A stretch of DNA of 64,000 nt, taken from positions 36,568,424 through 36,632,423 of the forward strand of contig OZ029914.1 in assembly GCA_964023275.1 (NCBI GenBank). The letters run 5' to 3'. The stretch's first letter is position 1, and each line of letters begins with the position of its first letter. The notes under the pieces are model-generated. The model made no database searches and was not told where the DNA came from. It saw only the letters and a program-made list of their open reading frames with translations. Position numbers and translations under genes: made by a program. Of the stretch, positions 1-25,900 are shown one piece after another. The stretch comes from Norana najaformis. Lineage: Eukaryota > Annelida > Clitellata > Crassiclitellata > Hormogastridae.

Positions 1-650
1 ACCCATTATGGGGGCACTGTTGTATACCAACTTCGGTTCCATTGCAATTCACGTTGTCCAACCATATTTGACCTGTTCCCATTCCGTGCTTGTTCCCAAT
101 TGCTGCACCGACGTAACTGATTTTAAATACAAACAGCAACAAGGTATGAAGCACGAGAAGAAAGACAGCAGGAGACATAATACATAAGAATCTATGAGGA
201 AACATCAACATTTGCCTTGTAATATATAAGGCACTGACAGTTTTATTTAGCAGCTCTAATTCAATTAAAAGTTCCAAGCAAACGTCATTCAAGGCCACTG
301 TTCATTATAATCTGGAGTTAGTGCGTGAAATGAAAGACTCAGCCCGTCGCTCAAAGGAATGCGCACCGCCACCGACCGACACTCGAAATGACTGTATTAT
401 ATCACAATTTGGAGTGATCTTCATCGAAGACATGGGCTATTTGAAATCCCGCATAATTTTACGAGCAGGCAAGCTTACCCATATCCGAGACTGGCACATG
501 CCACTCTTGCGCTGGCATTTGTAAATAAGTCATCACACACTGTTCCCCAGACTCCTGAATAGTAGATTTCCAATCGTCCTTCCTTTGAATTATTCCCGTA
601 AGAATTGTTCAATCTCACGGCAATAAAGTCTTCTTCAGTGCTCTCTACAA
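1..650 (-). CDS. SRCR module 12 (cut by window edge)
   Basis: Exon A 479-650 is complete. Exon B is present only as 1-116, covering its start (YVGAAIGNKHGMG) to about two thirds of its length; the donor lies outside the window. The array may continue to the left. Confidence 0.9.
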
Positions 651-3600
651 CTGCAATCATTTGCAAATTGGATTTCACATAATGAAGTGTCACCAAAACG
701 ATCTTGCAGGCTACGAATGAACAGGAAGGATGATGACGCACGATTGAAAGGGGCTAGGCAGAAAGCAATGTGTGCAAATCATCTTCTCGAAGTTGACTGC
801 ACTTGGCGAACTGTATGATATTTAACTCCAACGAGACGCGATCGATTTTAAAGGTATCAACCTGTTCATTTACTAGACTTATTCAGCGTTTAAAATAGGT
901 CGATTTAAAGTGGCTACTTTGCAGCGGCGTATATATAACAGGCTTAAATTCATGCGGCTAAAAGACGAGGCAGATCGGAAAACTGTCTCATCTGTAATTT
1001 ATGCTTCATTCTTTCTATAGTCACCGAGCTTCCTAATGTAACAATGACATAAAGAAGGCAGATTATTATCACGGAATGATCGCTTCGAAAATAAAACTGC
1101 TGGTTCTGTTCAAAAGAGCCACGAACTTAAACTTGAGTGAAAACATATTTGAAAGTTACATACTAACTGAAAATTAAAAAATCAATAGGAGTAGCCCAGC
1201 ACCGAATAAGTCCAAAATTATTCATAAATATAGTGAAGAAGAAACGTGAAAACTTAATTTCGTATTAGAAAAACAAAATATTCAGTATAATACGATAGCG
1301 GCTGTTGTACGGTTCGGTTGTGACATACACTCACCCTCGCAACTAATTGAGACATCTTCAATGTGGCTGCAATCGTGCACGCCCCACCCATTATGGGGGC
1401 ACTGTTGTATACCAACTTCGGTTCCATTGCAATTCACGTTGTCCAACCATATTTGACCTGTTCCCATTCCGTGCTTGTTCCCAATTGCTGCACCGACGTA
1501 ACTGATTTTAAATACAAACAGCAACAAGGTATGAAGCACGAGAAGAAAGACAGCAGGAGACATAATACATAAGAATCTATGAGGAAACATCAACATTTGC
1601 CTTGTAATATATAAGGCACTGACAGTTTTATTTAGCAGCTCTAATTCAATTAAAAGTTCCAAGCAAACGTCATTCAAGGCCACTGTTCATTATAATCTGG
1701 AGTTAGTGCGTGAAATGAAAGACTCAGCCCGTCGCTCAAAGGAATGCGCACCGCCACCGACCGACACTCGAAATGACTGTATTATAAACCTATTTTAAGT
1801 GATTTTCTTCGAAGACCTGCTCTATTTGTAATACCGCAAAATTTTACGAGCAGGCAAGCTTACCCATATCCGAGACTGGCACATGCCACTCTTGCGCTGG
1901 CATTTGTAAATAAGTCATCACACACTGTTCCCCAGACTCCTGAATAGTAGATTTCCAATCGTCCTTCCTTTGAATTATTCCCGTAAGAATTGTTCAATCT
2001 CACGGCAATAAAGTCTTCTTCAGTGCTCTCTACAACTGCAATCATTTGCAAATTGGATTTCACATAATGAAGTGTCACCAAAACGATCTTGCAGGCTACG
2101 AATGAACAGGAAGGATGATGACGCACGACTGAAAGGGGCTAGGCAGAAAGCAATGTGTGCAAATCATCTTCTCGAAGTTGACTGCACTTGGCGAACTGTA
2201 TGATATTTGACTCCAACGAGACGCGATCGATTTTAAAGGTATCAACCTGTTCATTTACTAGACTTATTCAGCGTTTGAAATAGGTCGATTTAAAGTGGCT
2301 ACTTTGCAGCGGCGTATATAACAGGCTTAAATTCATGCGGCTAAAAGACGCGGCAGATCGGAAAACTGTCTCATCTGTAATTTATGCTTCATTCTTTCTA
2401 TAGTTACCGACCTTCCTAATGTAACAATGACATAAAGAAGGCAGATTATTGTCACTGAATGATCGCTTCGAAAATAAAACTGCTGGTTCTGTTCAAAAGA
2501 GCCACGAACTTAAACTTGAGTGAAAACATATTTGAAAGTTACATACTAACTGAAAATTAAAAAATCAATAGCTGTAGGCCAGCACCGAATAAGTCCAAAA
2601 TTATTCATACATATAGTGAAGAAGAAACGTGAAAACTTAATTTCGTATTAGAAAAACAAAATATTCAGTATAATACGATAGCGGCTGTTGTACGGTTCGG
2701 TTGTGACATACACTCACCCTCGCAACTAATTGAGACATCTTCAATGTGGCTGCAATCGTGCACGCCCCACCCATTATGGGGGCACTGTTGTATACCAACT
2801 TCGGTTCCATTGCAATTCACGTTGTCCAACCATATTTGACCTGTTCCCATTCCGTGCTTGTTCCCAATTGCTGCACCGACGTAACTGATTTTAAATACAA
2901 ACAGCAACAAGGTATGAAGCACGAAAAGAAAGACAGCAGGAGACATAATACATAAGAATCTATGAGGAAACATCAACATTTGCCTTGTAATATATAAGGC
3001 ACTGACAGTTTTATTTAGCAGCTCTAATTCAATTAAAAGTTCCAAGCAAACGTCATTCAAGGCCACTGTTCATTATAATCTGGAGTTAGTGCGTGAAATG
3101 AAAGACTCAGCCCGTCGCTCAAAGGAATGCGCACCGCCACCGACCGACACTCGAAATGACTGTATTATATCACAATTTGGAGTGATCTTCATCGAAGACA
3201 TGGGCTATTTGTAATCCCGCATAATTTTACGAGCAGGCAAGCTTACCCATATCCGAGACTGGCACATGCCACTCTTGCGCTGGCATTTGTAAATAAGTCA
3301 TCACACACTGTTCCCCAGACTCCTGAATAGTAGATTTCCAATCGTCCTTCCTTTGAATTATTCCCGTAAGAATTGTTCAATCTCACGGCAATAAAGTCTT
3401 CTTCAGTGCTCTCTACAACTGCAATCATTTGCAAATTGGATTTCACATAATGAAGTGTCACCAAAACGATCTTGCAGGCTACGAATGAACAGGAAGGATG
3501 ATGACGCACGATTGAAAGGGGCTAGGCAGAAAGCAATGTGTGCAAATCATCTTCTCGAAGTTGACTGCACTTGGCGAACTGTATGATATTTAACTCCAAC

Positions 3601-6600
3601 GAGACGCGATCGATTTTAAAGGTATCAACCTGTTCATTTACTAGACTTATTCAGCGTTTAAAATAGGTCGATTTAAAGTGGCTACTTTGCAGCGGCGTAT
3701 ATATAACAGGCTTAAATTCATGCGGCTAAAAGACGAGGCAGATCGGAAAACTGTCTCATCTGTAATTTATGCTTCATTCTTTCTATAGTCACCGAGCTTC
3801 CTAATGTAACAATGACATAAAGAAGGCAGATTATTATCACGGAATGATCGCTTCGAAAATAAAACTGCTGGTTCTTTTCAAAAGAGCCACGAACTTAAAC
3901 TTGAGTGAAAACATATTTGAAAGTTACATACTAACTGAAAATTAAAAAATCAATAGCTGTAGCCCAGCACCGAATAAGTCCAAAATTATTCATAAATATA
4001 GTGAAGAAGAAACGTGAAAACTTAATTTCGTATTAGAAAAACAAAATATTCAGTATAATACGATAGCGGCTGTTGTACGGTTCGGTTGTGACATACACTC
4101 ACCCTCGCAACTAATTGAGACATCTTCAATGTGGCTGCAATCGTGCACGCCCCACCCATTATGGGGGCACTGTTGTATACCAACTTCGGTTCCATTGCAA
4201 TTCACGTTGTCCAACCATATTTGACCTGTTCCCATTCCGTGCTTGTTCCCAATTGCTGCACCGACGTAACTGATTTTAAATACAAACAGCAACAAGGTAT
4301 GAAGCACGAGAAGAAAGACAGCAGGAGACATAATACATAAGAATCTATGAGGAAACATCAACATTTGCCTTGTAATATATAAGGCACTGACAGTTTTATT
4401 TAGCAGCTCTAATTCAATTAAAAGTTCCAAGCAAACGTCATTCAAGGCCACTGTTCATTATAATCTGGAGTTAGTGCGTGAAATGAAAGACTCAGCCCGT
4501 CGCTCAAAGGAATGCGCACCGCCACCGACCGACACTCGAAATGACTGTATTATATCACAATTTGGAGTGATCTTCATCGAAGACATGGGCTATTTGTAAT
4601 CCCGCATAATTTTACGAGCAGGCAAGCTTACCCATATCCGAGACTGGCACATGCCACTCTTGCGCTGGCATTTGTAAATAAGTCATCACACACTGTTCCC
4701 CAGACTCCTGAATAGTAGATTTCCAATCGTCCTTCCTTTGAATTATTCCCGTAAGAATTGTTCAATCTCACGGCAATAAAGTCTTCTTCAGTGCTATCTA
4801 CAACTGCAATCATTTGCAAATTGGATTTCACATAATGAAGTGTCACCAAAACGATCTTGCAGGCTACGAATGAACAGGAAGGATGATGACGCACGACTGA
4901 AAGGGGCTAGGCAGAAAGCAATGTGTGCAAATCATCTTCTCGAAGTTGACTGCACTTGGCGAACTGTATGATATTTGACTCCAACGAGACGCGATCGATT
5001 TTAAAGGTATCAACCTGTTCATTTACTAGACTTATTCAGCGTTTGAAATAGGTCGATTTAAAGTGGCTACTTTGCAGCGGCGTATATAACAGGCTTAAAT
5101 TCATGCGGCTAAAAGACGCGGCAGATCGGAAAACTGTCTCATCTGTAATTTATGCTTCATTCTTTCTATAGTTACCGACCTTCCTAATGTAACAATGACA
5201 TAAAGAAGGCAGATTATTGTCACTGAATGATCGCTTCGAAAATAAAACTGCTGGTTCTGTTCAAAAGAGCCACGAACTTAAACTTGAGTGAAAACATATT
5301 TGAAAGTTACATACTAACTGAAAATTAAAAAATCAATAGCTGTAGGCCAGCACCGAATAAGTCCAAAATTATTCATACATATAGTGAAGAAGAAACGTGA
5401 AAACTTAATTTCGTATTAGAAAAACAAAATATTCAGTATAATACGATAGCGGCTGTTGTACGGTTCGGTTGTGACATACACTCACCCTCGCAACTAATTG
5501 AGACATCTTCAATGTGGCTGCAATCGTGCACGCCCCACCCATTATGGGGGCACTGTTGTATACCAACTTCGGTTCCATTGCAATTCACGTTGTCCAACCA
5601 TATTTGACCTGTTCCCATTCCGTGCTTGTTCCCAATTGCTGCACCGACGTAACTGATTTTAAATACAAACAGCAACAAGGTATGAAGCACGAAAAGAAAG
5701 ACAGCAGGAGACATAATACATAAGAATCTATGAGGAAACATCAACATTTGCCTTGTAATATATAAGGCACTGACAGTTTTATTTAGCAGCTCTAATTCAA
5801 TTAAAAGTTCCAAGCAAACGTCATTCAAGGCCACTGTTCATTATAATCTGGAGTTAGTGCGTGAAATGAAAGACTCAGCCCGTCGCTCAAAGGAATGCGC
5901 ACCGCCACCGACCGACACTCGAAATGACTGTATTATATCACAATTTGGAGTGATCTTCATCGAAGACATGGGCTATTTGTAATCCCGCATAATTTTACGA
6001 GCAGGCAAGCTTACCCATATCCGAGACTGGCACATGCCACTCTTGCGCTGGCATTTGTAAATAAGTCATCACACACTGTTCCCCAGACTCCTGAATAGTA
6101 GATTTCCAATCGTCCTTCCTTTGAATTATTCCCGTAAGAATTGTTCAATCTCACGGCAATAAAGTCTTCTTCAGTGCTCTCTACAACTGCAATCATTTGC
6201 AAATTGGATTTCACATAATGAAGTGTCACCAAAACGATCTTGCAGGCTACGAATGAACAGGAAGGATGATGACGCACGATTGAAAGGGGCTAGGCAGAAA
6301 GCAATGTGTGCAAATCATCTTCTCGAAGTTGACTGCACTTGGCGAACTGTATGATATTTAACTCCAACGAGACGCGATCGATTTTAAAGGTATCAACCTG
6401 TTCATTTACTAGACTTATTCAGCGTTTAAAATAGGTCGATTTAAAGTGGCTACTTTGCAGCGGCGTATATATAACAGGCTTAAATTCATGCGGCTAAAAG
6501 ACGAGGCAGATCGGAAAACTGTCTCATCTGTAATTTATGCTTCATTCTTTCTATAGTCACCGAGCTTCCTAATGTAACAATGACATAAAGAAGGCAGATT

Positions 6601-9600
6601 ATTATCACGGAATGATCGCTTCGAAAATAAAACTGCTGGTTCTGTTCAAAAGAGCCACGAACTTAAACTTGAGTGAAAACATATTTGAAAGTTACATACT
6701 AACTGAAAATTAAAAAATCAATAGCTGTAGGCCAGCACCGAATAAGTCCAAAATTATTCATACATATAGTGAAGAAGAAACGTGAAAACTTAATTTCGTA
6801 TTAGAAAAACAAAATATTCAGTATAATACGATAGCGGCTGTTGTACGGTTCGGTTGTGACATACACTCACCCTCGCAACTAATTGAGACATCTTCAATGT
6901 GGCTGCAATCGTGCACGCCCCACCCATTATGGGGGCACTGTTGTATACCAACTTCGGTTCCATTGCAATTCACGTTGTCCAACCATATTTGACCTGTTCC
7001 CATTCCGTGCTTGTTCCCAATTGCTGCACCGACGTAACTGATTTTAAATACAAACAGCAACAAGGTATGAAGCACGAAAAGAAAGACAGCAGGAGACATA
7101 ATACATAAGAATCTATGAGGAAACATCAACATTTGCCTTGTAATATATAAGGCACTGACAGTTTTATTTAGCAGCTCTAATTCAATTAAAAGTTCCAAGC
7201 AAACGTCATTCAAGGCCACTGTTCATTATAATCTGGAGTTAGTGCGTGAAATGAAAGACTCAGCCCGTCGCTCAAAGGAATGCGCACCGCCACCGACCGA
7301 CACTCGAAATGACTGTATTATATCACAATTTGGAGTGATCTTCATCGAAGACATGGGCTATTTGTAATCCCGCATAATTTTACGAGCAGGCAAGCTTACC
7401 CATATCCGAGACTGGCACATGCCACTCTTGCGCTGGCATTTGTAAATAAGTCATCACACACTGTTCCCCAGACTCCTGAATAGTAGATTTCCAATCGTCC
7501 TTCCTTTGAATTATTCCCGTAAGAATTGTTCAATCTCACGGCAATAAAGTCTTCTTCAGTGCTCTCTACAACTGCAATCATTTGCAAATTGGATTTCACA
7601 TAATGAAGTGTCACCAAAACGATCTTGCAGGCTACGAATGAACAGGAAGGATGATGACGCACGATTGAAAGGGGCTAGGCAGAAAGCAATGTGTGCAAAT
7701 CATCTTCTCGAAGTTGACTGCACTTGGCGAACTGTATGATATTTAACTCCAACGAGACGCGATCGATTTTAAAGGTATCAACCTGTTCATTTACTAGACT
7801 TATTCAGCGTTTAAAATAGGTCGATTTAAAGTGGCTACTTTGCAGCGGCGTATATATAACAGGCTTAAATTCATGCGGCTAAAAGACGAGGCAGATCGGA
7901 AAACTGTCTCATCTGTAATTTATGCTTCATTCTTTCTATAGTCACCGAGCTTCCTAATGTAACAATGACATAAAGAAGGCAGATTATTATCACGGAATGA
8001 TCGCTTCGAAAATAAAACTGCTGGTTCTTTTCAAAAGAGCCACGAACTTAAACTTGAGTGAAAACATATTTGAAAGTTACATACTAACTGAAAATTAAAA
8101 AATCAATAGCTGTAGCCCAGCACCGAATAAGTCCAAAATTATTCATAAATATAGTGAAGAAGAAACGTGAAAACTTAATTTCGTATTAGAAAAACAAAAT
8201 ATTCAGTATAATACGATAGCGGCTGTTGTACGGTTCGGTTGTGACATACACTCACCCTCGCAACTAATTGAGACATCTTCAATGTGGCTGCAATCGTGCA
8301 CGCCCCACCCATTATGGGGGCACTGTTGTATACCAACTTCGGTTCCATTGCAATTCACGTTGTCCAACCATATTTGACCTGTTCCCATTCCGTGCTTGTT
8401 CCCAATTGCTGCACCGACGTAACTGATTTTAAATACAAACAGCAACAAGGTATGAAGCACGAGAAGAAAGACAGCAGGAGACATAATACATAAGAATCTA
8501 TGAGGAAACATCAACATTTGCCTTGTAATATATAAGGCACTGACAGTTTTATTTAGCAGCTCTAATTCAATTAAAAGTTCCAAGCAAACGTCATTCAAGG
8601 CCACTGTTCATTATAATCTGGAGTTAGTGCGTGAAATGAAAGACTCAGCCCGTCGCTCAAAGGAATGCGCACCGCCACCGACCGACACTCGAAATGACTG
8701 TATTATATCACAATTTGGAGTGATCTTCATCGAAGACATGGGCTATTTGTAATCCCGCATAATTTTACGAGCAGGCAAGCTTACCCATATCCGAGACTGG
8801 CACATGCCACTCTTGCGCTGGCATTTGTAAATAAGTCATCACACACTGTTCCCCAGACTCCTGAATAGTAGATTTCCAATCGTCCTTCCTTTGAATTATT
8901 CCCGTAAGAATTGTTCAATCTCACGGCAATAAAGTCTTCTTCAGTGCTATCTACAACTGCAATCATTTGCAAATTGGATTTCACATAATGAAGTGTCACC
9001 AAAACGATCTTGCAGGCTACGAATGAACAGGAAGGATGATGACGCACGACTGAAAGGGGCTAGGCAGAAAGCAATGTGTGCAAATCATCTTCTCGAAGTT
9101 GACTGCACTTGGCGAACTGTATGATATTTGACTCCAACGAGACGCGATCGATTTTAAAGGTATCAACCTGTTCATTTACTAGACTTATTCAGCGTTTGAA
9201 ATAGGTCGATTTAAAGTGGCTACTTTGCAGCGGCGTATATAACAGGCTTAAATTCATGCGGCTAAAAGACGCGGCAGATCGGAAAACTGTCTCATCTGTA
9301 ATTTATGCTTCATTCTTTCTATAGTTACCGACCTTCCTAATGTAACAATGACATAAAGAAGGCAGATTATTGTCACTGAATGATCGCTTCGAAAATAAAA
9401 CTGCTGGTTCTGTTCAAAAGAGCCACGAACTTAAACTTGAGTGAAAACATATTTGAAAGTTACATACTAACTGAAAATTAAAAAATCAATAGCTGTAGGC
9501 CAGCACCGAATAAGTCCAAAATTATTCATACATATAGTGAAGAAGAAACGTGAAAACTTAATTTCGTATTAGAAAAACAAAATATTCAGTATAATACGAT

Positions 9601-12600
9601 AGCGGCTGTTGTACGGTTCGGTTGTGACATACACTCACCCTCGCAACTAATTGAGACATCTTCAATGTGGCTGCAATCGTGCACGCCCCACCCATTATGG
9701 GGGCACTGTTGTATACCAACTTCGGTTCCATTGCAATTCACGTTGTCCAACCATATTTGACCTGTTCCCATTCCGTGCTTGTTCCCAATTGCTGCACCGA
9801 CGTAACTGATTTTAAATACAAACAGCAACAAGGTATGAAGCACGAAAAGAAAGACAGCAGGAGACATAATACATAAGAATCTATGAGGAAACATCAACAT
9901 TTGCCTTGTAATATATAAGGCACTGACAGTTTTATTTAGCAGCTCTAATTCAATTAAAAGTTCCAAGCAAACGTCATTCAAGGCCACTGTTCATTATAAT
10001 CTGGAGTTAGTGCGTGAAATGAAAGACTCAGCCCGTCGCTCAAAGGAATGCGCACCGCCACCGACCGACACTCGAAATGACTGTATTATATCACAATTTG
10101 GAGTGATCTTCATCGAAGACATGGGCTATTTGTAATCCCGCATAATTTTACGAGCAGGCAAGCTTACCCATATCCGAGACTGGCACATGCCACTCTTGCG
10201 CTGGCATTTGTAAATAAGTCATCACACACTGTTCCCCAGACTCCTGAATAGTAGATTTCCAATCGTCCTTCCTTTGAATTATTCCCGTAAGAATTGTTCA
10301 ATCTCACGGCAATAAAGTCTTCTTCAGTGCTATCTACAACTGCAATCATTTGCAAATTGGATTTCACATAATGAAGTGTCACCAAAACGATCTTGCAGGC
10401 TACGAATGAACAGGAAGGATGATGACGCACGACTGAAAGGGGCTAGGCAGAAAGCAATGTGTGCAAATCATCTTCTCGAAGTTGACTGCACTTGGCGAAC
10501 TGTATGATATTTGACTCCAACGAGACGCGATCGATTTTAAAGGTATCAACCTGTTCATTTACTAGACTTATTCAGCGTTTGAAATAGGTCGATTTAAAGT
10601 GGCTACTTTGCAGCGGCGTATATAACAGGCTTAAATTCATGCGGCTAAAAGACGCGGCAGATCGGAAAACTGTCTCATCTGTAATTTATGCTTCATTCTT
10701 TCTATAGTTACCGACCTTCCTAATGTAACAATGACATAAAGAAGGCAGATTATTGTCACTGAATGATCGCTTCGAAAATAAAACTGCTGGTTCTGTTCAA
10801 AAGAGCCACGAACTTAAACTTGAGTGAAAACATATTTGAAAGTTACATACTAACTGAAAATTAAAAAATCAATAGCTGTAGGCCAGCACCGAATAAGTCC
10901 AAAATTATTCATACATATAGTGAAGAAGAAACGTGAAAACTTAATTTCGTATTAGAAAAACAAAATATTCAGTATAATACGATAGCGGCTGTTGTACGGT
11001 TCGGTTGTGACATACACTCACCCTCGCAACTAATTGAGACATCTTCAATGTGGCTGCAATCGTGCACGCCCCACCCATTATGGGGGCACTGTTGTATACC
11101 AACTTCGGTTCCATTGCAATTCACGTTGTCCAACCATATTTGACCTGTTCCCATTCCGTGCTTGTTCCCAATTGCTGCACCGACGTAACTGATTTTAAAT
11201 ACAAACAGCAACAAGGTATGAAGCACGAAAAGAAAGACAGCAGGAGACATAATACATAAGAATCTATGAGGAAACATCAACATTTGCCTTGTAATATATA
11301 AGGCACTGACAGTTTTATTTAGCAGCTCTAATTCAATTAAAAGTTCCAAGCAAACGTCATTCAAGGCCACTGTTCATTATAATCTGGAGTTAGTGCGTGA
11401 AATGAAAGACTCAGCCCGTCGCTCAAAGGAATGCGCACCGCCACCGACCGACACTCGAAATGACTGTATTATATCACAATTTGGAGTGATCTTCATCGAA
11501 GACATGGGCTATTTGTAATCCCGCATAATTTTACGAGCAGGCAAGCTTACCCATATCCGAGACTGGCACATGCCACTCTTGCGCTGGCATTTGTAAATAA
11601 GTCATCACACACTGTTCCCCAGACTCCTGAATAGTAGATTTCCAATCGTCCTTCCTTTGAATTATTCCCGTAAGAATTGTTCAATCTCACGGCAATAAAG
11701 TCTTCTTCAGTGCTCTCTACAACTGCAATCATTTGCAAATTGGATTTCACATAATGAAGTGTCACCAAAACGATCTTGCAGGCTACGAATGAACAGGAAG
11801 GATGATGACGCACGACTGAAAGGGGCTAGGCAGAAAGCAATGTGTGCAAATCATCTTCTCGAAGTTGACTGCACTTGGCGAACTGTATGATATTTGACTC
11901 CAACGAGACGCGATCGATTTTAAAGGTATCAACCTGTTCATTTACTAGACTTATTCAGCGTTTGAAATAGGTCGATTTAAAGTGGCTACTTTGCAGCGGC
12001 GTATATAACAGGCTTAAATTCATGCGGCTAAAAGACGCGGCAGATCGGAAAACTGTCTCATCTGTAATTTATGCTTCATTCTTTCTATAGTTACCGACCT
12101 TCCCAATGTAACAATGACATAAAGAAGGCAGATTATTGTCACTGAATGATCGCTTCGAAAATAAAACTGCTGGTTCTGTTCAAAAGAGCCACGAACTTAA
12201 ACTTGAGTGAAAACATATTTGAAAGTTACATACTAACTGAAAATTAAAAAATCAATAGCTGTAGGCCAGCACCGAATAAGTCCAAAATTATTCATACATA
12301 TAGTGAAGAAGAAACGTGAAAACTTAATTTCGTATTAGAAAAACAAAATATTCAGTATAATACGATAGCGGCTGTTGTACGGTTCGGTTGTGACATACAC
12401 TCACCCTCGCAACTAATTGAGACATCTTCAATGTGGCTGCAATCGTGCACGCCCCACCCATTATGGGGGCACTGTTGTATACCAACTTCGGTTCCATTGC
12501 AATTCACGTTGTCCAACCATATTTGACCTGTTCCCATTCCGTGCTTGTTCCCAATTGCTGCACCGACGTAACTGATTTTAAATACAAACAGCAACAAGGT

Positions 12601-15600
12601 ATGAAGCACGAAAAGAAAGACAGCAGGAGACATAATACATAAGAATCTATGAGGAAACATCAACATTTGCCTTGTAATATATAAGGCACTGACAGTTTTA
12701 TTTAGCAGCTCTAATTCAATTAAAAGTTCCAAGCAAACGTCATTCAAGGCCACTGTTCATTATAATCTGGAGTTAGTGCGTGAAATGAAAGACTCAGCCC
12801 GTCGCTCAAAGGAATGCGCACCGCCACCGACCGACACTCGAAATGACTGTATTATATCACAATTTGGAGTGATCTTCATCGAAGACATGGGCTATTTGTA
12901 ATCCCGCATAATTTTACGAGCAGGCAAGCTTACCCATATCCGAGACTGGCACATGCCACTCTTGCGCTGGCATTTGTAAATAAGTCATCACACACTGTTC
13001 CCCAGACTCCTGAATAGTAGATTTCCAATCGTCCTTCCTTTGAATTATTCCCGTAAGAATTGTTCAATCTCACGGCAATAAAGTCTTCTTCAGTGCTCTC
13101 TACAACTGCAATCATTTGCAAATTGGATTTCACATAATGAAGTGTCACCAAAACGATCTTGCAGGCTACGAATGAACAGGAAGGATGATGACGCACGACT
13201 GAAAGGGGCTAGGCAGAAAGCAATGTGTGCAAATCATCTTCTCGAAGTTGACTGCACTTGGCGAACTGTATGATATTTGACTCCAACGAGACGCGATCGA
13301 TTTTAAAGGTATCAACCTGTTCATTTACTAGACTTATTCAGCGTTTGAAATAGGTCGATTTAAAGTGGCTACTTTGCAGCGGCGTATATAACAGGCTTAA
13401 ATTCATGCGGCTAAAAGACGCGGCAGATCGGAAAACTGTCTCATCTGTAATTTATGCTTCATTCTTTCTATAGTTACCGACCTTCCTAATGTAACAATGA
13501 CATAAAGAAGGCAGATTATTGTCACTGAATGATCGCTTCGAAAATAAAACTGCTGGTTCTGTTCAAAAGAGCCACGAACTTAAACTTGAGTGAAAACATA
13601 TTTGAAAGTTACATACTAACTGAAAATTAAAAAATCAATAGCTGTAGGCCAGCACCGAATAAGTCCAAAATTATTCATACATATAGTGAAGAAGAAACGT
13701 GAAAACTTAATTTCGTATTAGAAAAACAAAATATTCAGTATAATACGATAGCGGCTGTTGTACGGTTCGGTTGTGACATACACTCACCCTCGCAACTAAT
13801 TGAGACATCTTCAATGTGGCTGCAATCGTGCACGCCCCACCCATTATGGGGGCACTGTTGTATACCAACTTCGGTTCCATTGCAATTCACGTTGTCCAAC
13901 CATATTTGACCTGTTCCCATTCCGTGCTTGTTCCCAATTGCTGCACCGACGTAACTGATTTTAAATACAAACAGCAACAAGGTATGAAGCACGAAAAGAA
14001 AGACAGCAGGAGACATAATACATAAAAATCTATGAGGAAACATCAACATTTGCCTTGTAATATATAAGGCACTGACAGTTTTATTTAGCAGCTCTAATTC
14101 AATTAAAAGTTCCAAGCAAACGTCATTCAAGGCCACTGTTCATTATAATCTGGAGTTAGTGCGTGAAATGAAAGACTCAGCCCGTCGCTCAAAGGAATGC
14201 GCACCGCCACCGACCGACACTCGAAATGACTGTATTATATCACAATTTGGAGTGATCTTCATCGAAGACATGGGCTATATGTAATCCCGCATAATTTTAC
14301 GAGCAGGCAAGCTTACCCATATCCGAGACTGGCACATGCCACTCTTGCGCTGGCATTTGTAAATAAGTCATCACACACTGTTCCCCAGACTCCTGAATAG
14401 TAGATTTCCAATCGTCCTTCCTTTGAATTATTCCCGTAAGAATTGTTCAATCTCACGGCAATAAAGTCTTCTTCAGTGCTCTCTACAACTGCAATCATTT
14501 GCAAATTGGATTTCACATAATGAAGTGTCACCAAAACGATCTTGCAGGCTACGAATGAACAGGAAGGATGATGACGCACGATTGAAAGGGGCTAGGCAGA
14601 AAGCAATGTGTGCAAATCATCTTCTCGAAGTTGACTGCACTTGGCGAACTGTATGATATTTGACTCCAACGAGACGCGATCGATTTTAAAGGTATCAACC
14701 TGTTCATTTACTAGACTTATTCAGCGTTTGAAATAGGTCGATTTAAAGTGGCTACTTTGCAGCGGCGTATATAACAGGCTTAAATTCATGCGGCTAAAAG
14801 ACGCGGCAGATCGGAAAACTGTCTCATCTGTAATTTATGCTTCATTCTTTCTATAGTTACCGAGCTTCCCAATGTAACAATGACATAAAGAAGGCAGATT
14901 ATTGTCACTGAATGATCGCTTCGAAAATAAAACTGCTGGTTCTGTTCCAAAGAGCCACGAACTTAAACTTGAGTGAAAACATATTTGAAAGTTACATACT
15001 AACTGAAAATTAAAAAATCAATAGCTGTAGGCCAGCACCGAATAAGTCCAAAATTATTCATACATATAGTGAAGAAGAAACGTGAAAACTTAATTTCGTA
15101 TTAGAAAAACAAAATATTCAGTATAATACGATAGCGCCTGTTGTACGGTTCGGTTGTGACATACACTCACCCTCGCAACTAATTGAGACATCTTCAATGT
15201 GGCTGCAATCGTGCACGCCCCACCCATTATGGGGGCACTGTTGTATACCAACTTCGGTTCCATTGCAATTCACGTTGTCCAACCATATTTGACCTGTTCC
15301 CATTCCGTGCTTGTTCCCAATTGCTGCACCGACGTAACTGATTTTAAATACAAACAGCAACAAGGTATGAAGCACGAGAAGAAAGACAGCAGGAGACATA
15401 ATACATAAGAATCTATGAGGAAACATCAACATTTGCCTTGTAATATATAAGGCACTGACAGTTTTATTTAGCAGCTCTAATTCAATTAAAAGTTCCAAGC
15501 AAACGTCATTCAAGGCCACTGTTCATTATAATCTGGAGTTAGTGCGTGAAATGAAAGACTCAGCCCGTCGCTCAAAGGAATGCGCACCGCCACCGACCGA

Positions 15601-15859
15601 CACTCGAAATGACTGTATTATATCACAATTTGGAGTGATCTTCATCGAAGACATGGGCTATGTGTAATCCCGCATAATTTTACGAGCAGGCAAGCTTACC
15701 CATATCCGAGACTGGCACATGCCACTCTTGCGCTGGCATTTGTAAATAAGTCATCACACACTGTTCCCCAGACTCCTGAATAGTAGATCTCCAATCGTCC
15801 TTCCTTCGAGATATTCGAGTAAGGATTGTTTAATCGCAACTGAAAGTCCTGAGTGCTTT
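1..15859 (-). CDS. Multi-SRCR receptor gene, 12 modules visible (partial)
   Basis: This is a spliced minus-strand gene for a secreted or membrane scavenger-receptor-like protein. Each module is two exons. Exon A (172 nt) carries EGRLEIYYSGVWGTVCDD and VACASLGYG; exon B (167 nt) carries MGTGQIWLDNVNC, QQCPHNGW and HDC...ISC. Exon A follows gattgcag, starts in phase 1 and ends TATGG before GTAAGC. Exon B follows aaaatcag and ends GAGG before GTGAGT. The joined 339 nt is a symmetrical 1-1 module of 113 codons. Six cysteines and a two-exon layout are the known marks of group-A SRCR domains. Each standard module has four N-glycosylation sequons (NNS, NNS, NAS, NGT). Signal peptide, membrane segment and tail exons are not in the window. 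The ligand is unknown; related multi-SRCR proteins bind microbial or endogenous ligands. Confidence 0.9.
1335..2035 (-). CDS. SRCR module 11
   Basis: Exon A 1,864-2,035; exon B 1,335-1,501. Standard protein form. The intron between the two exons has a diverged patch at about 1,784-1,840 that no other unit shows. Confidence 0.9.
2718..3418 (-). CDS. SRCR module 10
   Basis: Exon A 3,247-3,418; exon B 2,718-2,884. Standard form with Glu in VVES. Confidence 0.9.
4103..4803 (-). CDS. SRCR module 9 (Asp variant)
   Basis: Exon A 4,632-4,803; exon B 4,103-4,269. VVDS variant. This module and the long-type intron to its left (with gttcttttca near 3,871) match module 6 and its intron, three units away. 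Confidence 0.9.
5486..6186 (-). CDS. SRCR module 8
   Basis: Exon A 6,015-6,186; exon B 5,486-5,652. Standard form with Glu in VVES. Confidence 0.9.
6871..7571 (-). CDS. SRCR module 7
   Basis: Exon A 7,400-7,571; exon B 6,871-7,037. Standard form with Glu in VVES. The intron to the left of its exon B (about 6,190-6,870) is the chimeric one, changing from long-type to short-type variants. Confidence 0.9.
8256..8956 (-). CDS. SRCR module 6 (Asp variant)
   Basis: Exon A 8,785-8,956; exon B 8,256-8,422. VVDS variant. The intron between its exon A and exon B is like that of the other modules. The long-haplotype intron with gttcttttca near 8,031 lies just to the left, between exon B and the next exon A. 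Confidence 0.9.
9639..10339 (-). CDS. SRCR module 5 (Asp variant)
   Basis: Exon A 10,168-10,339; exon B 9,639-9,805. Exon A reads VVDS instead of VVES, the only amino-acid variant seen among modules 2-12. It shares this with modules 6 and 9. Confidence 0.9.
11022..11722 (-). CDS. SRCR module 4
   Basis: Exon A 11,551-11,722; exon B 11,022-11,188. Standard protein form (Glu in VVES); short haplotype. The intron between this exon A and module 3's exon B has ttcccaatg where most units have ttcctaatg. Confidence 0.9.
12405..13105 (-). CDS. SRCR module 3
   Basis: Exon A 12,934-13,105; exon B 12,405-12,571. Standard protein form (Glu in VVES); short (1383-bp) intron haplotype. Confidence 0.9.
13788..14488 (-). 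CDS. SRCR module 2
   Basis: Exon A 14,317-14,488; exon B 13,788-13,954. Standard protein form with Glu in VVES. Its unit carries private intron variants, including cgagcttcccaatg at about 14,865 and gttccaaag at about 14,944. Confidence 0.9.
15171..15859 (-). CDS. SRCR module 1 (5'-most, diverged exon A)
   Basis: Exon A is about 15,700-15,859 and exon B 15,171-15,337. The first part of exon A differs from the others: it reads VESTQDFQLRLNNPYSNISKEG, two codons shorter than the standard form and closer to the usual SRCR start. The second part is identical to the other copies. The usual acceptor gattgcag is gattgcaa here. The next AG (ttgtag, 6 nt further on) would keep phase 1 and gives the 160-nt exon quoted. 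Confidence 0.8.
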
Positions 15860-15911
15860 CTACAATTGCAATCATTTGCAAATTGGATTTCACATAATGA
15901 AGTGTCACCAA

Positions 15912-17030
15912 AAGGCTTCGTTAAAGTCAATGATTGAACAGGACGGTTGGTCAGTGGATCACTCAAGATTGAAAGGGGTTATTGTAGTGACAATATATGT
16001 GTGTATCGTGTTCTTGAAGTTGACTACACTTTACAAACTGTTTGAAAATTTGCATCAAGGAATCGGAAGCGAGATTTAATGAAGTAAACCTGTCTATTTT
16101 TCGACCTGTTCAGCTGTTGAATTAAGTCTGCGTGTGAAGTTTGCGATTGCTCTGACTGTCTCGTTTTGGGCGTTTTATTCCATCTTACCTAATTCAAAAG
16201 CAAGGCCAGTCCCTAAATTTATTTATTGGATGATGTGCGATTTGTCGTCTTAAACCACATGCTTTGTTTTTTTTGTCTTTCTTCTCAGCCTCCAACATAA
16301 CGCAAATCGACCCCCTGCCACTTTAACCAATCTTCTCGATCTTTCGACTTCTGGCATGTCTCCAGTCTATTTAGCGGTTGTCGATCCCTCCGTCCCCATA
16401 ACCACTGATCCTCTTTCGATCTGTGTCTCTCAATTCGTCCGTTCCTATCCTTCAGAGCTTTTACCCTGAATCGCCCCGATCCACCTCTCTTTCTGCATTC
16501 CCTCCAATCGTCTCTTGATTCTATCCTGATCTGCTTTCGTTGATCGCTGCATATGGTCTTACCAGTCAAGCCAGGTTTATTTTCCCCTCTTCTCAATTCC
16601 GTCGTCGGGGGACGGACCTGTGTTATGCCGCGGCGCTAACCGACCTATTGCCAGCTCTAGCGAATGCCCGCTCTTATCGTTTTCGCAACAAGTCACCGTT
16701 ATTTTTCGCTTATTCTAATTGGTCCAAATGGATCAAGGAACTCGCCTATGTCTAGGGGTTTGGTGTATTGATAGCAGGCAAAGGGAGGAGCTAAAGGTTG
16801 TTTGAGGGGAGCAGCACAAAAGAAAAGGAACTAGAAAATGAAAGATTGAAGCTATAAACGGAATTGAAAGCTAAGGAGGCAAAGATGTCAACTGAAGCTC
16901 AAGTTTGTGCAAGATAAATTTAAAGTAGATAGGGAACTGAAAGACAGTAAGAAATGGGTGCAGCTGGCACAAGAGATTCAGTTGAAGATGGTTCTTTTGC
17001 GGCTTTCGGACTTTTCCGACCTTAGCGACT
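15912..17030. other. Array edge and unrecognised spacer
   Basis: Up to about 16,140 the sequence is a decayed version of the SRCR intron. Where the next exon B would be expected (about 16,550-16,720) I see no SRCR coding. About 16,270-16,750 is pyrimidine-rich on the plus strand with long open frames that I do not recognise. 16,770-17,000 is purine-rich, with Glu/Lys-rich open stretches, possibly decayed mobile-element coding. No host gene can be supported. Confidence 0.5.
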
Positions 17031-17034
17031 TTGG

Positions 17035-17345
17035 GCACCTGACGCTGGTCGCTCTTCTTGACTTTAGCGTAGTATTCGATACTGTTGACCACAAAATATA
17101 TTATTCACGCACCTCAGTATATTTCACTGGTTTATCGCTGGAATGGTTTCGTTCATATCTCATTTAACCGATAATGATTGTTTCGGCTGATTCAAACCGG
17201 GCTCGCAATTGGACGGCTCATCTACATTCTTTTTATTGCCGATCTAATATCATAACACTTAAAACCTGTGTCTATACATACGCGGATGATGTCTAGCTGC
17301 ACTACAGCTGTCATCGCTTCACTGTTGAAGGAGTAGAGGAAGAAA
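17035..17345 (+). mobile_element. LINE reverse transcriptase fragment
   Basis: The plus-strand frame reads LVALLDFSVVFDTVDHKI, then GLSLEWFRSYLI, and further on, after frame breaks, YADDV. These are the AFDTVDH, GLS..WFRSYL and YADD blocks of the reverse transcriptase of CR1/L2/Jockey-like non-LTR elements. Only the palm region remains. It carries at least one frame break, and VF replaces the usual AAF. It is a dead fragment with no companion ORF. Confidence 0.75.
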
Positions 17346-17929
17346 CGAAGAGAACCATGGTATAATGCTTTAACACGTTTTTCCGAGCTAGAGCGCAGAA
17401 GCTCTGCTTGAGACAGGTTAGTTTAAAGTTAATTTTCTTGAAAAACTGATATAAGAGAAATCTCGAACATCGGGAAAGAAAGAGTGGGCGAAAATTAAGA
17501 GGTTGGGAGGAGGAGAAAGAGGAAGGTGGAGAATTAACGAGGAGCGGTGATGTGGAGGAGAAGAAAATAAGACGGGGAACAATAGAGGTTGCCTCCAAAA
17601 GATGCGTTTTGCCGAGCTAACTGGAGAGAAAGGATGCAAGAGGAGTGGAAAGGGTGACGAGAATGTGGGGAGAAAAAATGGAGAAACTAGGAGCAACAGG
17701 GGATTTCAGATAGATTCTCGAGCAAGAAATGTTTGTGGCGTTCAGTGACGGTAAAGTAAAGACTGCCATCTGATATTTTATATTAAGAAATGAGCCTGCG
17801 AAGTACTACACCTGTAATGAAATGTTGACGTTAGAGGCGTGCAGCAAATTGGAGAGAACCGTGCCAGTCCTCTAGGCCTACATCTTGTTAATGCTTTTAT
17901 TATTTACATGCTCTATGAAGGCCAGGTTA
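17346..17929. other. Purine-rich spacer
   Basis: About 17,320-17,700 is strongly purine-rich on the plus strand (runs of gaggaagaaa and gaggaggagaaag). This creates Ser/Pro/Phe-rich open frames on the minus strand that look like composition artefacts. 17,700-17,930 holds nothing I recognise. Confidence 0.5.
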
Positions 17930-18070
17930 AAACAAACGTCGTGGTTTGGATAATAATGACCTGACCAATTATCGCTCTATTTCAACTTATCTTTGTTATC
18001 ACAAATAGTTGGAAAACGTGTGTCGATGCGACTGTTAATCCTATTAGTATATAACTGAATTGTATTACCG
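17930..18070 (+). mobile_element. LINE reverse transcriptase 5' fragment
   Basis: The plus-strand frame reads DNNDLTNYRSIST, followed by a degraded stretch resembling I.K..EK.V. This is the 'NYRPIS.LP..SKI.EK' block at the start of the reverse transcriptase of CR1/L2-type LINEs. The block normally lies upstream of FDTVDH, so this is a separate insertion from the fragment at 17,035-17,345, or the order has been rearranged. Confidence 0.55.
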
Positions 18071-18219
18071 GTCACAGTGGACAAAATCCCCAAAGTGATC
18101 AATATCACAATGAGCATTCTTTCTGTCAAGCGGTAGACCTGTCTTCTACGTACTGGAGACCGAAGAAAAACCTGAAACAAACGAGAATACGCATAAGAAT
18201 GCATCATTTTTAATGTTAC

Positions 18220-20165
18220 AGTGACACTTGCAGCATTGAAGAGGACATCCCTCGGGAAGCTTGAAAATTCAATTTGTGCTAGTGTTTATGTGTTTCAATT
18301 GAAACTAGCGGTGTACAGAGAGTCGTTGAGTCGGTTGATGAAAAAAGAAGGGGAGACAGCTGTTAAGTTTACTTCGCGCGTACAAGCAGTTTTATCTTAT
18401 TATCTTGAGGTCGCAATTAACAACTTTGTAGCAGCTGACCGAGTTGTTAGTATATGCGATCGTGTCAAGTGTTGTCTTTCTGAATCTTGTTTACGGTTTG
18501 TTTCTTTAGTCAGCTATTGACTTAGGTTGATTGCTATTAGCTAATCATATCGGTGATAAGCCGCGAGCTCAAGCACTTGGCCAGCTAGGCAGCACCGCGC
18601 TTCAATGGGGCAGACATGAATAAAGGCACAGGCACTCCTTCCCAACCTTCTATTCCCAAGTTTCAGGGAATGCCTTCCAATCAGAAACCCAATGGTTCAT
18701 CTGTTAAAACTCTGAGAAGTTTTTTCAACTGTGGGAGTTTTTGTGATTTAAGAACTGAATTTAACAAGACTAAAAGCAAGCGATTTCGTCAACCAGCGCC
18801 GAACGACACGCAGAGTTGAGGAGTTTACAATTCTGGCGTCCCGGGTAGTGCTGAGTCAGTCGACGGGGAGTTTCCACAATGGGGAATTATTCAAGAGGCT
18901 CGGACCCTATCGTGTGAATAGTCCCCAGTGCTGGAACAGCCGCTGCCACCGATGCATGTAATGTGGTTTTTATAGTTTATTAAGTTCTAGCGACTGGAGC
19001 GATCAATCACGCGAATGTTATGATTTTGCAAAGTTGCATTATCTTCACTTTCAAGTTGCTGGTAAACCGGGTAAACGTTTTAAGCTCTTTCCCGCCTTAG
19101 ATGACGGAGGTGCTGAAGTAGCGGTTGCGAATCCCAGAACAATCAATAAACTTCGGTGTGTTGAACGCATAGGCTCTATAATTCTGCGAGGCATTATAGG
19201 CGCCTCTGTTGATGCACAGCTGGTTAGACGGTACCTTAGTCTAGATCACAAATGTAGGACTGACGTAGACTGTAAACATTGTCAAGGTGGATACCAGTTT
19301 TCTGACGAGGCCAATGGTTCATTGGTGATAAGTGCAGCCATGGTTGAACAATTAGAACCTAACCGCTATCAATGTAATGTTATAACCCAACTGGGAATTG
19401 ATTTCTCTGATAACATTATCAATAAGAATGATGAAAACTGTGAAAGTGCTAGTGACATAGTTGATAAAAAGGATAATGATGAGGCTTTGACAAATGCTGC
19501 GCCGTATGTTAACGCTGATAAAGAAGAGGCAAAAGACTCTGTTGACTCTGAAGATGTGATAAGTGCGCCACATGTTAGCGATTTACAGCGCGCTTCTGTG
19601 GAAGAGTTAATACTCGAGCAGAAGACTGATAACACGCTGCGTAGAGCACATGCATTAGCTTCACGGGGAAGAGTGGAATCTTTTGCAAGGACGGACTATT
19701 AATCCACCATGAGAGTCTGTTGGGACAAGAATTCACTCAATTATGCCTGCCGTTGGGTAGGAGAGCTCAAGTTGTGGAGCTGGGGCACGAATTAGGTGGT
19801 CATTTAGGTCCTAAAAGAATAAGTCAAGATTCTATTGGTGCACAATAATTAAGGATGTAAAACAGCACTGTGAAAGTTGTGAAATCTGTTGGGAGAAGGC
19901 ACGCATTACGTTCCGCGATCGTGTTCCAAAACAGTCGATTCCACGACTGGACATTGCCTTTAGCCATTGGTTCTTGGAGGTACTGGGCCCTATTAACGGT
20001 ACTAAGTGCGAGTTTAATCACTTCTTGATTATTGCAGATAGCGCAACGCGTCATCCGGCAAGAGTTTCGGTGCCAAGTCAGAACGTGATGGAGCTGAAGT
20101 AAGTGAAGACAGCGTGATGATCGACAGTGATTATGGGGACGACGCTGGTCATACTGTGGTGCAGG
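18220..20165 (+). mobile_element. Ty3/Gypsy-type LTR element, broken fossil
   Basis: Parts in plus-strand order: a gag-like region (about 18,220-18,530; LMKKEGETAVKFTSRVQAV is the typical capsid-helix pattern), a remnant of the nucleocapsid zinc-knuckle region (about 18,710-18,810), a protease-like region (about 19,070-19,340), an acidic linker, and the zinc-binding and core start of an integrase (about 19,720-20,100). Reverse transcriptase and RNase H are not recognisable and I could not pair LTRs. The copy is clearly broken, with many breaks, and looks moderately old. A related gag-side piece lies at about 28,480-29,160. Family assignment rests on the gag/protease/integrase order and general resemblance. 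Confidence 0.65.
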
Positions 20166-20169
20166 GGCG

Positions 20170-20690
20170 CGACCAAGATAAGATAGAGGGAAAAGTTGGG
20201 TTACTGATATAGCAGTAATAGTATAATAGTAAGTGGCATTGTGTGCCGGGAGTGGAATATATTTCAAAAGAAACTAATCACATTTCAGAAAATAGGCCTA
20301 TTTTACAGAGTTTTGAAATCTATCTAATGTTTTTTTCGATTATGAGAGTTGCTTATTATCTAATCAAATTAAATTTTACAAATTTACCTGCAAACCGGTT
20401 GACCGTTAATCTGAAACGTTCTTACTTTGGTACCACTTTCACATACAAAAATTGACACCGATGTGGCGATATGTCAACCAATGTATGTCAGTCGTCAAGA
20501 ATAACCGTAGACTTCAAAAGCGCAGTATGGCGCAATCTTTTATACCACCAGCTTGTCACAGTACTAATATCACGCTTCAATACTCAAGAATAATACTATT
20601 ATTCAGCCGTCTATAAGAAAAAAGCCAGTTCTGAGAATATATCCTAAAGTATCAGTTGTTGTCACGTTCTTCAAAAAAGCATGGGCGGAT
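20170..20690. other. Spacer, nothing recognised
   Basis: AT-rich. The short plus-strand frame at 20,243-20,455 has no recognisable features. The stretch cacatttcagaaaataggcctattttacagag (from about 20,270) has a similar partner near 51,940-52,030, so part of this is an old interspersed repeat. Confidence 0.4.
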
Positions 20691-23130
20691 GCCAGAAAGT
20701 CATGGTCGCATAGTAAAAGGCTCTGTCATTGTTGCCTGTAGGATCGAGTAATGTTACTACCGCCGACACGTGTTTCGATCTTACCGACGATCTCTTCAGA
20801 AAGGACTGTCAAATACGGATGACTGATTCCAAGAAAGAGCCCTTTGAGCGACGACTAATCTCAGCAGCAAACAAACGTCAACGCAAACAGACCTTAAAGA
20901 ACTCATGGTCGCCTCTAGGCACCGGCAGGTATAGGTTTTGAAAGAGAGGGGTAATCGCTGGCTCAAGCGACAAATCCTGGAATTCGAAGAGGCTGATGAC
21001 TACAACGATGGTATGTTATTAAATTGCGTTGGAAGAAAAATGGGTAAATGGCAGCTCCATGTAGGTCGCCTATTGATGTAATGTAATGTACTGATGGTAG
21101 ACAAAAGGGTTGATGTTGACTTAGTATTGTCGCTGTGCAAGGTGATGTAACAAACAGACTCTGTCAGCCTGAGCAAAGTAGCCTCGGTAGCGTGAAAACC
21201 ATGGGCGGATGCCAGACAGAAATGGTCGCAAGGTAAAAGGCTTTGGCATTGTTGCCTGTAGGGTAAAGTAATGTTACTACCGCCGACCCGCGTTTCGATC
21301 TTACTGACGATCTCTTCAGGAAGGACTGTCAAGTGCGAATGACTGATTGCAAGAAAGAGCCCTTTGAGCGACGACTAATCTCCACAGCAAACAATCGTGC
21401 AGGCAAACAGACCTCAAAGAATCCAAGGCCGCCTTTAGGCACCGGCAGGTATGGATTTTGAAAGAGAAGGGTTAAGCATTGGCTCAAGCGACTGACAAAT
21501 GCAAAGAGGCTTATGACTACGACGACGGTATGTGACACGAATTCGTTTAACTAAAATATTTAAGAAAAAAAAAACAATTTTCTAATTTCAGGCGTTATAT
21601 TTACAATTTGTAAGTACACATTTTATTTACAAAGACTCCTCCATTCAACAGAGTAACCCATAACTGTTATACAGCAGAAAAGACACCAAACTATCCTACG
21701 CAATATACGCCAGAAGAGACTCTCTCGACAACCACAGTCCTACCGGCATCTCGTAGTCTCGAATTCTCGAGCATCTGGCGTTGACCATCCTCCAGTCGAC
21801 TTCTGCACTCGCAAAAACAACCGCTACTCAGAAGTAGTTGACTGGACAAGCTCGGTAATGATTCCGATCCATCAGACCAATCAGCTACCATTCACCCGTA
21901 CCACTAGGACCACGAGTACCGGGCTAAATTCAAACACAATAAACTTTTTTCAACATACTTACACACTAAATTCCAATGAGTAGTTTTAGGACCACTGGTA
22001 CCGGGCTAAATTCAAACACTATAAACTTTTTTCAACATACTTACACATTAAATTCCAATGAGTAGTTTTCAACACGTAAGCCTACATAAACCACAAAACT
22101 CTGCGTGCCAAACGCCAAACAAAGTATACCCTCTCCGGCAGGTGTTAAATACCGCAGATATATACATCTAAAGCATGCTAACATATCTGTATACATAAAC
22201 CGGCCAAAACTGATGCCCATTATTCAAATAGCTTAGTACATGTAAGACCTCAACTTATGACCAAACTTATATACATATTTTAAAATCGTTTGTAGCCTAC
22301 AAAGAGAACAGACTCCTGAATTATGCACAAACACAGGTGTATATTATCTATACTCGAACTACATACATTTTAAAAATTGCTTAAGCTTAACATTATATAT
22401 ATGTTATATATATACACAAACTTACAAATATCGAAGACTAAGGGAAGGAAAGCGTTTCTCAGCTTCTCAGGCTTCCTGTCACTCCAGCCACGGACTTCGC
22501 TCCTCCAGTTCCTTTGACTGACCACTCCTTCGAATTCCCCGAAAATCTTCTCCTCGCTCCGTCACTCCGGAACTGACTCAACCCAGCGACTGCTCAACCC
22601 TCGGTACCACCGTCTTTCTTATTCACCGTGCCCAACAGCCGATCCCACTTTTCCCCGCCAGCCTGCAGGTGCGTTTACAACAGGTACAGGCAAACTACAG
22701 CGCATTTTGTGACAGTATGGCATTAAATTGTGGAAAAAAACTGGCTAAATGGCAGCCTCAGCAAGGTAGCCTACTGATGCAATGTAATGTACTGATGGTA
22801 GGCAAAAGGGCAAATGTGATGTTGACAGCATTGTCGCTGTGTAAGGTAATGTAACAAACAGACTCTGTCAGCCTGAGCAAAGTAGCCTCGGTAGCATAAA
22901 AAGCATGGACGTATGCCAAACAGAAATGGTGGCACGGTAAAAGGCTTTGGCATTTTTTCTGTAGGGTAAAGTAATGTTACTACCGTCGTCACGTGTTTCG
23001 ATCTTACTGACGATCTCTTCAGGACGGACTGTCAAGTGCGAATTGCAAAAAAGAGCCCCTTGAGCGACCACTAATCTCCACAGCAAACAATCGTGCAGGC
23101 AAACAGACATCAAAGAACCCAAGGCCGCCT
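20690..23130. repeat. Unclassified local repeat, three related copies
   Basis: A block containing gttactaccgccgac, gtttcgatctta and gacgatctcttcag, followed by gagcgacgactaatctc, occurs at about 20,690-20,990, 21,190-21,520 and 22,890-23,125. The second and third copies share a further left part (about 21,010-21,190 and 22,725-22,890), including tgtaatgtactgatggtag and aacagactctgtcagcctg. All copies have the same orientation. No coding domain is recognisable. It may be a non-autonomous element or a local segmental duplication. Confidence 0.7.
21540..22690. other. AT-rich spacer with 82-bp tandem duplication
   Basis: Two copies of an 82-bp unit starting aggaccac.agtaccgggctaaatt lie at about 21,906-21,987 and 21,988-22,070. 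An AT-rich stretch with a TATATA run follows at about 22,390-22,415. 22,440-22,660 is C-rich. No gene is visible. Confidence 0.6.
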
Positions 23131-23960
23131 CAGTACCTTATTGAAAGCCACAAAATAGTCAGGCATAGTCGGGCCTTGTAATAAAAATGAACCGTTCATT
23201 GCATGCACTCGTTTCATGGATGAAAATAGGCAGCTCTGCGGTCTTGAGATTCCAGGTATAATGAATAAAAAGAAAAGTCGATGTAATATAAAACAACTCT
23301 GGAAGACCAGTGGTTTATTTAAATCATGCGAAAAATAAATCCTGGCTTTTTCCAAAATTTAAATGCTTAGAGATACCAACAAAAAGCGTTAACCAACTAT
23401 AATATGTTTACAAAACCTAAACAACTGCTGAAAGTGTAGTTGGCTGAGATATTTAAAAACTGTAAAAAGGGCCTTAACATATAAAAAGACATAAGGTCAT
23501 TACTAAATTATAATAATAATTTTGTTTATCACCGAAACGTTTGAATAAGCAATTGAAATACCACATTTGAAAATGTTTAGTAAATTCGGCTTTCCTACGT
23601 TTGGCCAGCTATAAACCAATGGTCATGAGATAATTGTTGTTGCTAAACAGCTGGATTTATTTTCTAGTTATGGTTTAGATGAAATTGACCCAAATATTGC
23701 CCAAGTTCCAATTTAGAGGAGCGGAAGAATCAGGCTCTGATTTGTGGCGTGCAGTATTCTTTCTCTAGCGGTACCGTATTTGCAGATGTAAAGGCAGAAA
23801 AGGCAATTCCCTTTAAAAATTTAAAGAAAGAATACAAATTAACAATTCCATATCTATTTAGGTCCTTCCGTATTTTCCCAAATATTTGACCTACCAACCA
23901 CGTCTAAAACATTATATTTATTATTATTTGCCTATAATATAAGCACTTTTATATGATAAA
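23130..23960. other. AT-rich spacer
   Basis: Low-GC sequence with short frames only. No domain, RNA or repeat boundary was recognised. Confidence 0.4.
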
Positions 23961-24665: not shown

Positions 24666-24769
24666 TTACATGCATAAATACATTAAGACATATTTACTTA
24701 CATACATTCTTGCATACAAACATACTTATATTCATATATACATACACAAAAACATACAGCCGAACTTGG

Positions 24770-25826: not shown

Positions 25827-25900
25827 CAGTGGTCCGCAACCTGCGGCTGTTCTGCCGCATGCAGCCGTGAGAGGGAGATTTGGCGGCCGTAGACACAAGA
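25827..25900 (+). mobile_element. Possible hAT-type transposon terminus
   Basis: The stretch begins CAGTGGTCCGCAACCTGC and continues into GC-rich inverted fragments (ctgcggctgttctgccgcatgcagccg). This is the known look of hAT-superfamily ends (CAG.GGT..NCAACCT). No matching right end was found nearby, so it is a fragment or its other end has diverged. Confidence 0.4.

Follow-up and report, generated by a model that had tools for sequence, protein, structure and literature searches.

The window analysed here is a stretch of 64,000 nucleotides from the annelid Norana najaformis (GenBank assembly GCA_964023275.1, contig OZ029914.1, positions 36,568,424 to 36,632,423 of the forward strand), and all positions below count from its first base. 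On the minus strand of positions 1-15859 lie 12 two-exon SRCR modules, arranged head-to-tail in units of 1383 or 1385 bp. Exact matches to the cores of the two exons, exon A and exon B, were found 12 times each and always on the minus strand, and the same exact-match scan found none on the plus strand. Modules 2-11 are complete, module 1 has diverged in part, and module 12 is truncated at base 1 of the window, its visible part being of the Glu form described below. The array continues past the left window edge, so that twelve modules is a minimum. The initial annotation had reported eleven nearly invariant modules (2-12); the observation stands, and with the divergent module 1 (109 aa) counted in, the total becomes at least 12. 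Outside the array, no SRCR exon better than E = 2 was found in the window (tblastn with one module as query). In gene order, with G and H denoting two sequence lineages described further on, the array and its upstream flank comprise:

15860-16128, minus strand: diverged, older intron-2 remnant of the repeat, lying upstream of module 1 and including, beside exon A, a 47-bp island that matches the array exactly
15700-15859, minus strand: module 1 exon A, 160 nt with a TAG acceptor, 5' part diverged, usual acceptor site reading TTGCAA
15171-15337, minus strand: module 1 exon B, 167 nt, of array type
13168-14550, minus strand: unit 2 (exon A 14317-14488, exon B 13788-13954), lineage G with 2 private changes
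11785-13167, minus strand: unit 3 (exon A 12934-13105, exon B 12405-12571), lineage G
10402-11784, minus strand: unit 4 (exon A 11551-11722, exon B 11022-11188), lineage G, same sequence as units 8 and 10
9019-10401, minus strand: unit 5 (exon A 10168-10339, exon B 9639-9805), lineage G apart from an H-type Asp site
7634-9018, minus strand: unit 6 (exon A 8785-8956, exon B 8256-8422), lineage H, same sequence as unit 9
6249-7633, minus strand: unit 7 (exon A 7400-7571, exon B 6871-7037), hybrid with a G-type 5' part and an H-type 3' part, at the junction of a three-unit duplication
4866-6248, minus strand: unit 8 (exon A 6015-6186, exon B 5486-5652), lineage G
3481-4865, minus strand: unit 9 (exon A 4632-4803, exon B 4103-4269), lineage H
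2098-3480, minus strand: unit 10 (exon A 3247-3418, exon B 2718-2884), lineage G
713-2097, minus strand: unit 11 (exon A 1864-2035, exon B 1335-1501), H-like; its intron 1 has a diverged patch seen in no other unit (1787-1839)
1-712, minus strand: unit 12, incomplete at the window edge (exon A 479-650, exon B 1-116 as far as visible)

One module matches the Pfam family SRCR (PF00530) at 4.9e-28 and 97.8 bits (cut-off 26.1), which places it in the SRCR superfamily, and against SRCR_2 (PF15494) the same module scores 23.5 bits, under the cut-off of 27. It also matches 26 solved sequences, including CD163, DMBT1, MARCO and SCARA5. The module common to units 2-11 has six cysteines, at residues 39, 52, 82, 92, 102 and 112, and sequence signals assign it a 172-nt exon A and a 167-nt exon B separated by a phase-2 intron; the splice from exon B to the next exon A is in phase, with no spacer in between. 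Six cysteines and a domain encoded by two exons characterise group A SRCR (PMC3100851), and by both features the predicted domain is one of SRCR group A. In modules 2-11 the two exons add up to 339 nt, or 113 codons, their donor and acceptor sites are intact, and the spliced reading frames give phases 1-1 for the outer introns and phase 2 for the inner, within-domain intron. Since exon A follows a phase-1 acceptor and exon B runs to a phase-1 donor, one cassette adds exactly 113 residues in frame; the phase neutrality proposed in the initial annotation is thereby borne out for modules 2-11, and gain or loss of a unit keeps the frame. The module carries four N-glycosylation sequons, with a net charge of -9 and an isoelectric point of 4.6. 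Rfam gave no match at its gathering thresholds.

The modules are indeed nearly invariant, as had been claimed from the first reading of this DNA. All 10 complete modules (2-11) encode the same protein but for residue 3, where a GAG/GAT difference, the sole coding variant among them, gives Glu or Asp, with Asp in 3 of 10 (modules 5, 6 and 9). The further claim that introns are nearly as conserved as exons also held: average identity among units 2-11 (45 pairs) is 99.86% for exons and 99.08% for introns, and the least similar pair is 2.0% different. Given introns that alike, the identity of the exons needs no protein-level cause. Counted as substitution columns, units 2-11 vary at 1 of 339 exon positions and at 30 of 1046 intron positions, 13 of these 30 belonging to a 53-column patch seen only in unit 11; if unit 11 is omitted, 15 intron columns remain. 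This patch, at 1787-1839 in intron 1, has 13 of its 53 columns changed and is unlike every other unit. No match to it of more than 18 bases was found in the window outside the array, and it was perhaps converted from a copy beyond the window.

Alternatively, the uniformity of the protein could stem from selection against amino-acid changes and not from homogenisation of the DNA. Exons are slightly more alike than introns, and on all sites (30 variable intron sites) they are significantly less variable, p = 0.003, which speaks against a purely DNA-level origin and makes some purifying selection on exons possible. However, the exon deficit falls to p = 0.06 when the unit-11 patch is taken as one event (18 sites) and to p = 0.14 when unit 11 is omitted (15 sites), while the introns are themselves 99% alike and whole units, introns included, are identical. 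Selection is hence disfavoured as the sole cause, and we regard it as very improbable in that role. Most of the uniformity lies in the DNA as such, and the homogeneity is ascribed mainly to DNA-level recombination.

The relationships among the units agree with recombination. The ten complete units amount to 7 distinct sequences: units 4, 8 and 10 share one sequence of 1383 bp, and units 6 and 9 another of 1385 bp. Two lineages account for most of the variable sites, G (units 2-5, 8 and 10) and H (units 6, 9 and mostly 11), which are separated by 13 substitutions and one 2-bp indel. At a higher level, a 3722-bp exact direct repeat, in which most of unit 5, all of unit 6 and most of unit 7 recur as units 8, 9 and 10, shows that the repetition in the array is far beyond chance:

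6610-10331, minus strand: three-unit block, first copy in gene order, exactly equal to 2457-6178
2457-6178, minus strand: three-unit block, second copy in gene order, exactly equal to 6610-10331

Unit 7 is of type G up to column 996 and of type H from column 1031, and this switch coincides with the end of the three-unit identity. It is a hybrid of the kind expected at the junction of an unequal crossover displaced by three units. Two observations go against the simplest event of this kind. If the crossover had been a simple one of three units, unit 7 would agree with unit 4 in its 3' part; it does not, so that the partner array must have had an H unit there, for example on the homologous chromosome. 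In addition, unit 5 has an H-type base at column 76 and unit 8 does not. In the four-gamete test, column 76 conflicts with 11 other sites, and since it takes part in every conflict, recurrent mutation at this column could explain them, which lessens the weight of the test as a sign of recombination. The divergence of the three-unit block is below about 0.08% (rule of three). At an assumed substitution rate near 3e-9 per site per year, the three-unit duplication would be less than roughly 130,000 years old.

An assembly artefact could have generated such a pattern by expanding a shorter array or by interleaving two alleles, G and H being about 0.9% apart, in which case copy number and order would be wrong. 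The gap between G and H is plausible as an allelic distance, the 3722-bp repeat is a place where assembly graphs can loop, and exact kilobase repeats are also expected from assembly error. A simple loop would nevertheless give identical units, whereas seven different sequences occur among units 2-11; moreover, units 2 and 11 have private changes (2 and 15 columns) and the hybrid unit sits where a crossover would put one. We thus consider an artefact unlikely and the array probably real and recent. The recent expansion with continuing homogenisation put forward in the initial annotation is supported by the identical units, the exact three-unit block and the recombinant unit 7: the domain copies are close to letter-identical apparently because the DNA was recently copied and reshuffled.

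Module 1, which has 109 aa when read from its TAG acceptor, is diverged in its first third. Up to about column 151 its exon A differs from that of the array and is two codons (6 nt) shorter, the frame being kept, and over 29 codons of this diverged part the nonsynonymous divergence from the array (dN) is 0.17-0.21 and the synonymous divergence (dS) 0.60-0.75, the ranges reflecting gap placement. Such values, together with the in-frame 6-nt indel, look as in a translated exon. Beyond column 151 the module is nearly of array type, with three private changes, and its 13 informative columns divide into 10 G and 3 H. Upstream, diverged similarity to the intron reaches position 16128, with a local alignment score of 112 once the 100 exon-adjacent bases are left out (best of 200 shuffles, 40). 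Module 1 is older than the other modules, and the mixture of diverged and identical patches around it fits gene conversion or old crossovers.

Taken as a whole, the locus is likely to be part of one minus-strand animal gene for at least 12 tandem group-A SRCR domains, with a joint mRNA, multivalent cation-dependent binding and a variable number of repeats. The cassettes would be spliced into a single long mRNA, and the protein would act as a multivalent, cation-dependent scavenger or agglutinin offering an identical binding face in each domain, by analogy with DMBT1, where repeat number sets avidity as it may do here. In DMBT1 SRCR8 the cation and ligand sites are D1019, D1020, D1058, D1059, N1081 and E1086 (PMC7043408). 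Judging by spacing and by alignment with CD163, residues D40, D41, D78, N79, D101 and E106 of the module appear to occupy the SRCR cation-site positions, and a string of identical, negatively charged domains with such sites would suit multivalent cation-dependent binding of repetitive surfaces. A DMBT1 isoform with 8 SRCR domains is reported to bind bacteria 30-40% less well than the 13-domain isoform (PMC9038570). Since gain or loss of a cassette keeps the frame and the units offer a near-perfect template for misalignment, the repeat number probably differs between individuals, a prediction for which DMBT1 is a strong precedent. The term receptor, as applied to the gene product, is likewise a prediction.

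Several observations weigh against this gene model. No start codon, transmembrane segment, stop or transcript is in view, the 3' end of the gene lying beyond the left window edge, and a search for an upstream first exon in 15860-32600 gave only one weak signal-peptide exon candidate. This candidate, with an ATG near 25532 on the minus strand, was not accepted (1 found against a mean of 0.25 per shuffle). The usual acceptor of module 1 is lost and now reads TTGCAA, so that the module needs the in-frame TAG six bases downstream, with phase 1 kept. Furthermore, the upstream flank holds dispersed repeats, and the AlphaFold model is of low confidence (mean pLDDT 38.8) and unusable. The lack of a convincing first exon, the changed acceptor and the upstream repeats would also suit SRCR exons that are decayed or untranscribed as an array, or a series of individual single-domain genes in place of one long gene, as would an AATAAA/ATTAAA site present in intron 1 of 11 of the 11 units examined. 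On the other hand, open exons, splice sites and matching phases are found in 10 of 10 complete units, the diverged 5' part of module 1 has dN below dS with its indel in frame, and a crude scan found no signal-peptide exon before exon A in any of 11 units, the only candidates lying inside the domain at the end of intron 1. Decay or separate genes seem to us quite unlikely, and a single long gene is the reading we retain.

As for the candidates within the domain, each of the 11 units examined (1-11) has, at the end of intron 1, an open frame in phase with exon B. It contains an ATG and, after it, a signal-peptide-like stretch, MSPAVFLFVLHTLLLFVFKI or the same with L at the eighth residue, for example:

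11189-11373, minus strand: intron-1 open frame of unit 4, in frame with exon B

In unit 4, 64 of 3000 shuffles were as hydrophobic or more, for a stretch that was chosen after being seen, and the hydrophobic reading is little telling because pyrimidine tracts read as Phe/Leu anyway. That each cassette is also its own transcript entry point is highly doubtful; if true, starts in intron 1 would yield a secreted half domain plus downstream modules, hence a nested length series from one array.

The remainder of the window holds other features, among them two genes of Mab-21 / cGAS-like-receptor type:

32652-34646, plus strand: first gene, open frame of 664 codons
47528-49525, plus strand: second gene, open frame of 665 codons

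Their DNA is about 85-87% identical, the best solved relative of the second is 'cGAS-like receptor 1' (8gjy, 1.7e-22), and the pair is probably a duplicated innate-immune nucleotidyltransferase. On the minus strand, the open frames at 57749-58111 and 59864-60322 resemble exons of an immunoglobulin-domain protein; the former gave weak immunoglobulin matches (1.7e-5, below the curated cut-off) and the latter none. A 14-bp minisatellite, GGACAATAACCCCC, at 43251-43333 faces its own inverted copy at 43771-43873 across about 0.5 kb and resembles the ends of a fold-back element. Several dispersed repeat families of about 80-95% identity occupy about 18300-31300 and 38600-41900. Some open frames at 27-29 kb and around 39 kb, together with a stretch near 17050, resemble by eye relics of LINE endonuclease or reverse transcriptase; Pfam gave no match in three tested open frames among these candidates.

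Among known systems the closest parallel is human DMBT1 (SALSA, gp340), a salivary protein whose number of domains varies among people and which also has near-identical tandem SRCR domains from repeated cassettes. Its SRCR1-13 are 88-100% identical, with SRCR3/7 and SRCR10/11 fully identical (PMC7043408). Alleles differ in copy number both through a 4-domain block and through a single-domain unit, and have 7-20 (PMC4851238) or 7-21 (PMC9038570) domains each, and the stated mutation rate for the block deletion is 0.7-2.7% per generation (PMC4851238). The near-identical tandem domains are thus shared (10 of 10 modules here), whereas DMBT1 domains are of group B, usually with 8 Cys and one exon (PMC3100851), and DMBT1 has SID spacers; the array described here is group A, two-exon, spacer-less and more uniform. 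DMBT1 also has CUB and ZP domains; the downstream part of the array gene lies beyond the left window edge. CD163 is likewise a string of SRCR domains, nine stretches of its chain matching the array module, but its nine domains, of group B (PMC2906472), score from 25.8 to 78.8 bits against that module, unlike the uniform array. Echinoderms and sponges have large SRCR gene sets, many in tandem, with one exon per domain in the sea urchin cluster and mostly three in the sponge cluster (PMC10855680), and in Holothuria glaberrima the SRCR domains are mostly if not all group A, with 1 to 51 per protein and proteins of up to about 5,981 aa (preprint PMC13228809). The portions consulted of these two sources do not describe near-identical cassettes. 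Hence a many-group-A-domain architecture (echinoderms) and copy-number-variable SRCR cassettes (DMBT1) are already known separately. The two combined, with such purity and a visible three-unit duplication, did not turn up in the open-licence SRCR literature, by the titles and abstract openings of the matches listed, which likewise showed no near-identical invertebrate array of group-A SRCR cassettes.

The design of DMBT1, avidity by copy number, would thus be met again in a group-A gene. Accounts of immune genes usually stress diversification; in this array recombination acts in the other direction, a dozen domains being kept nearly identical while the repeat number is free to change. If that number varies between individuals, the relation of SRCR copy number to microbe binding would become testable in another lineage, on a nearly pure repeat.

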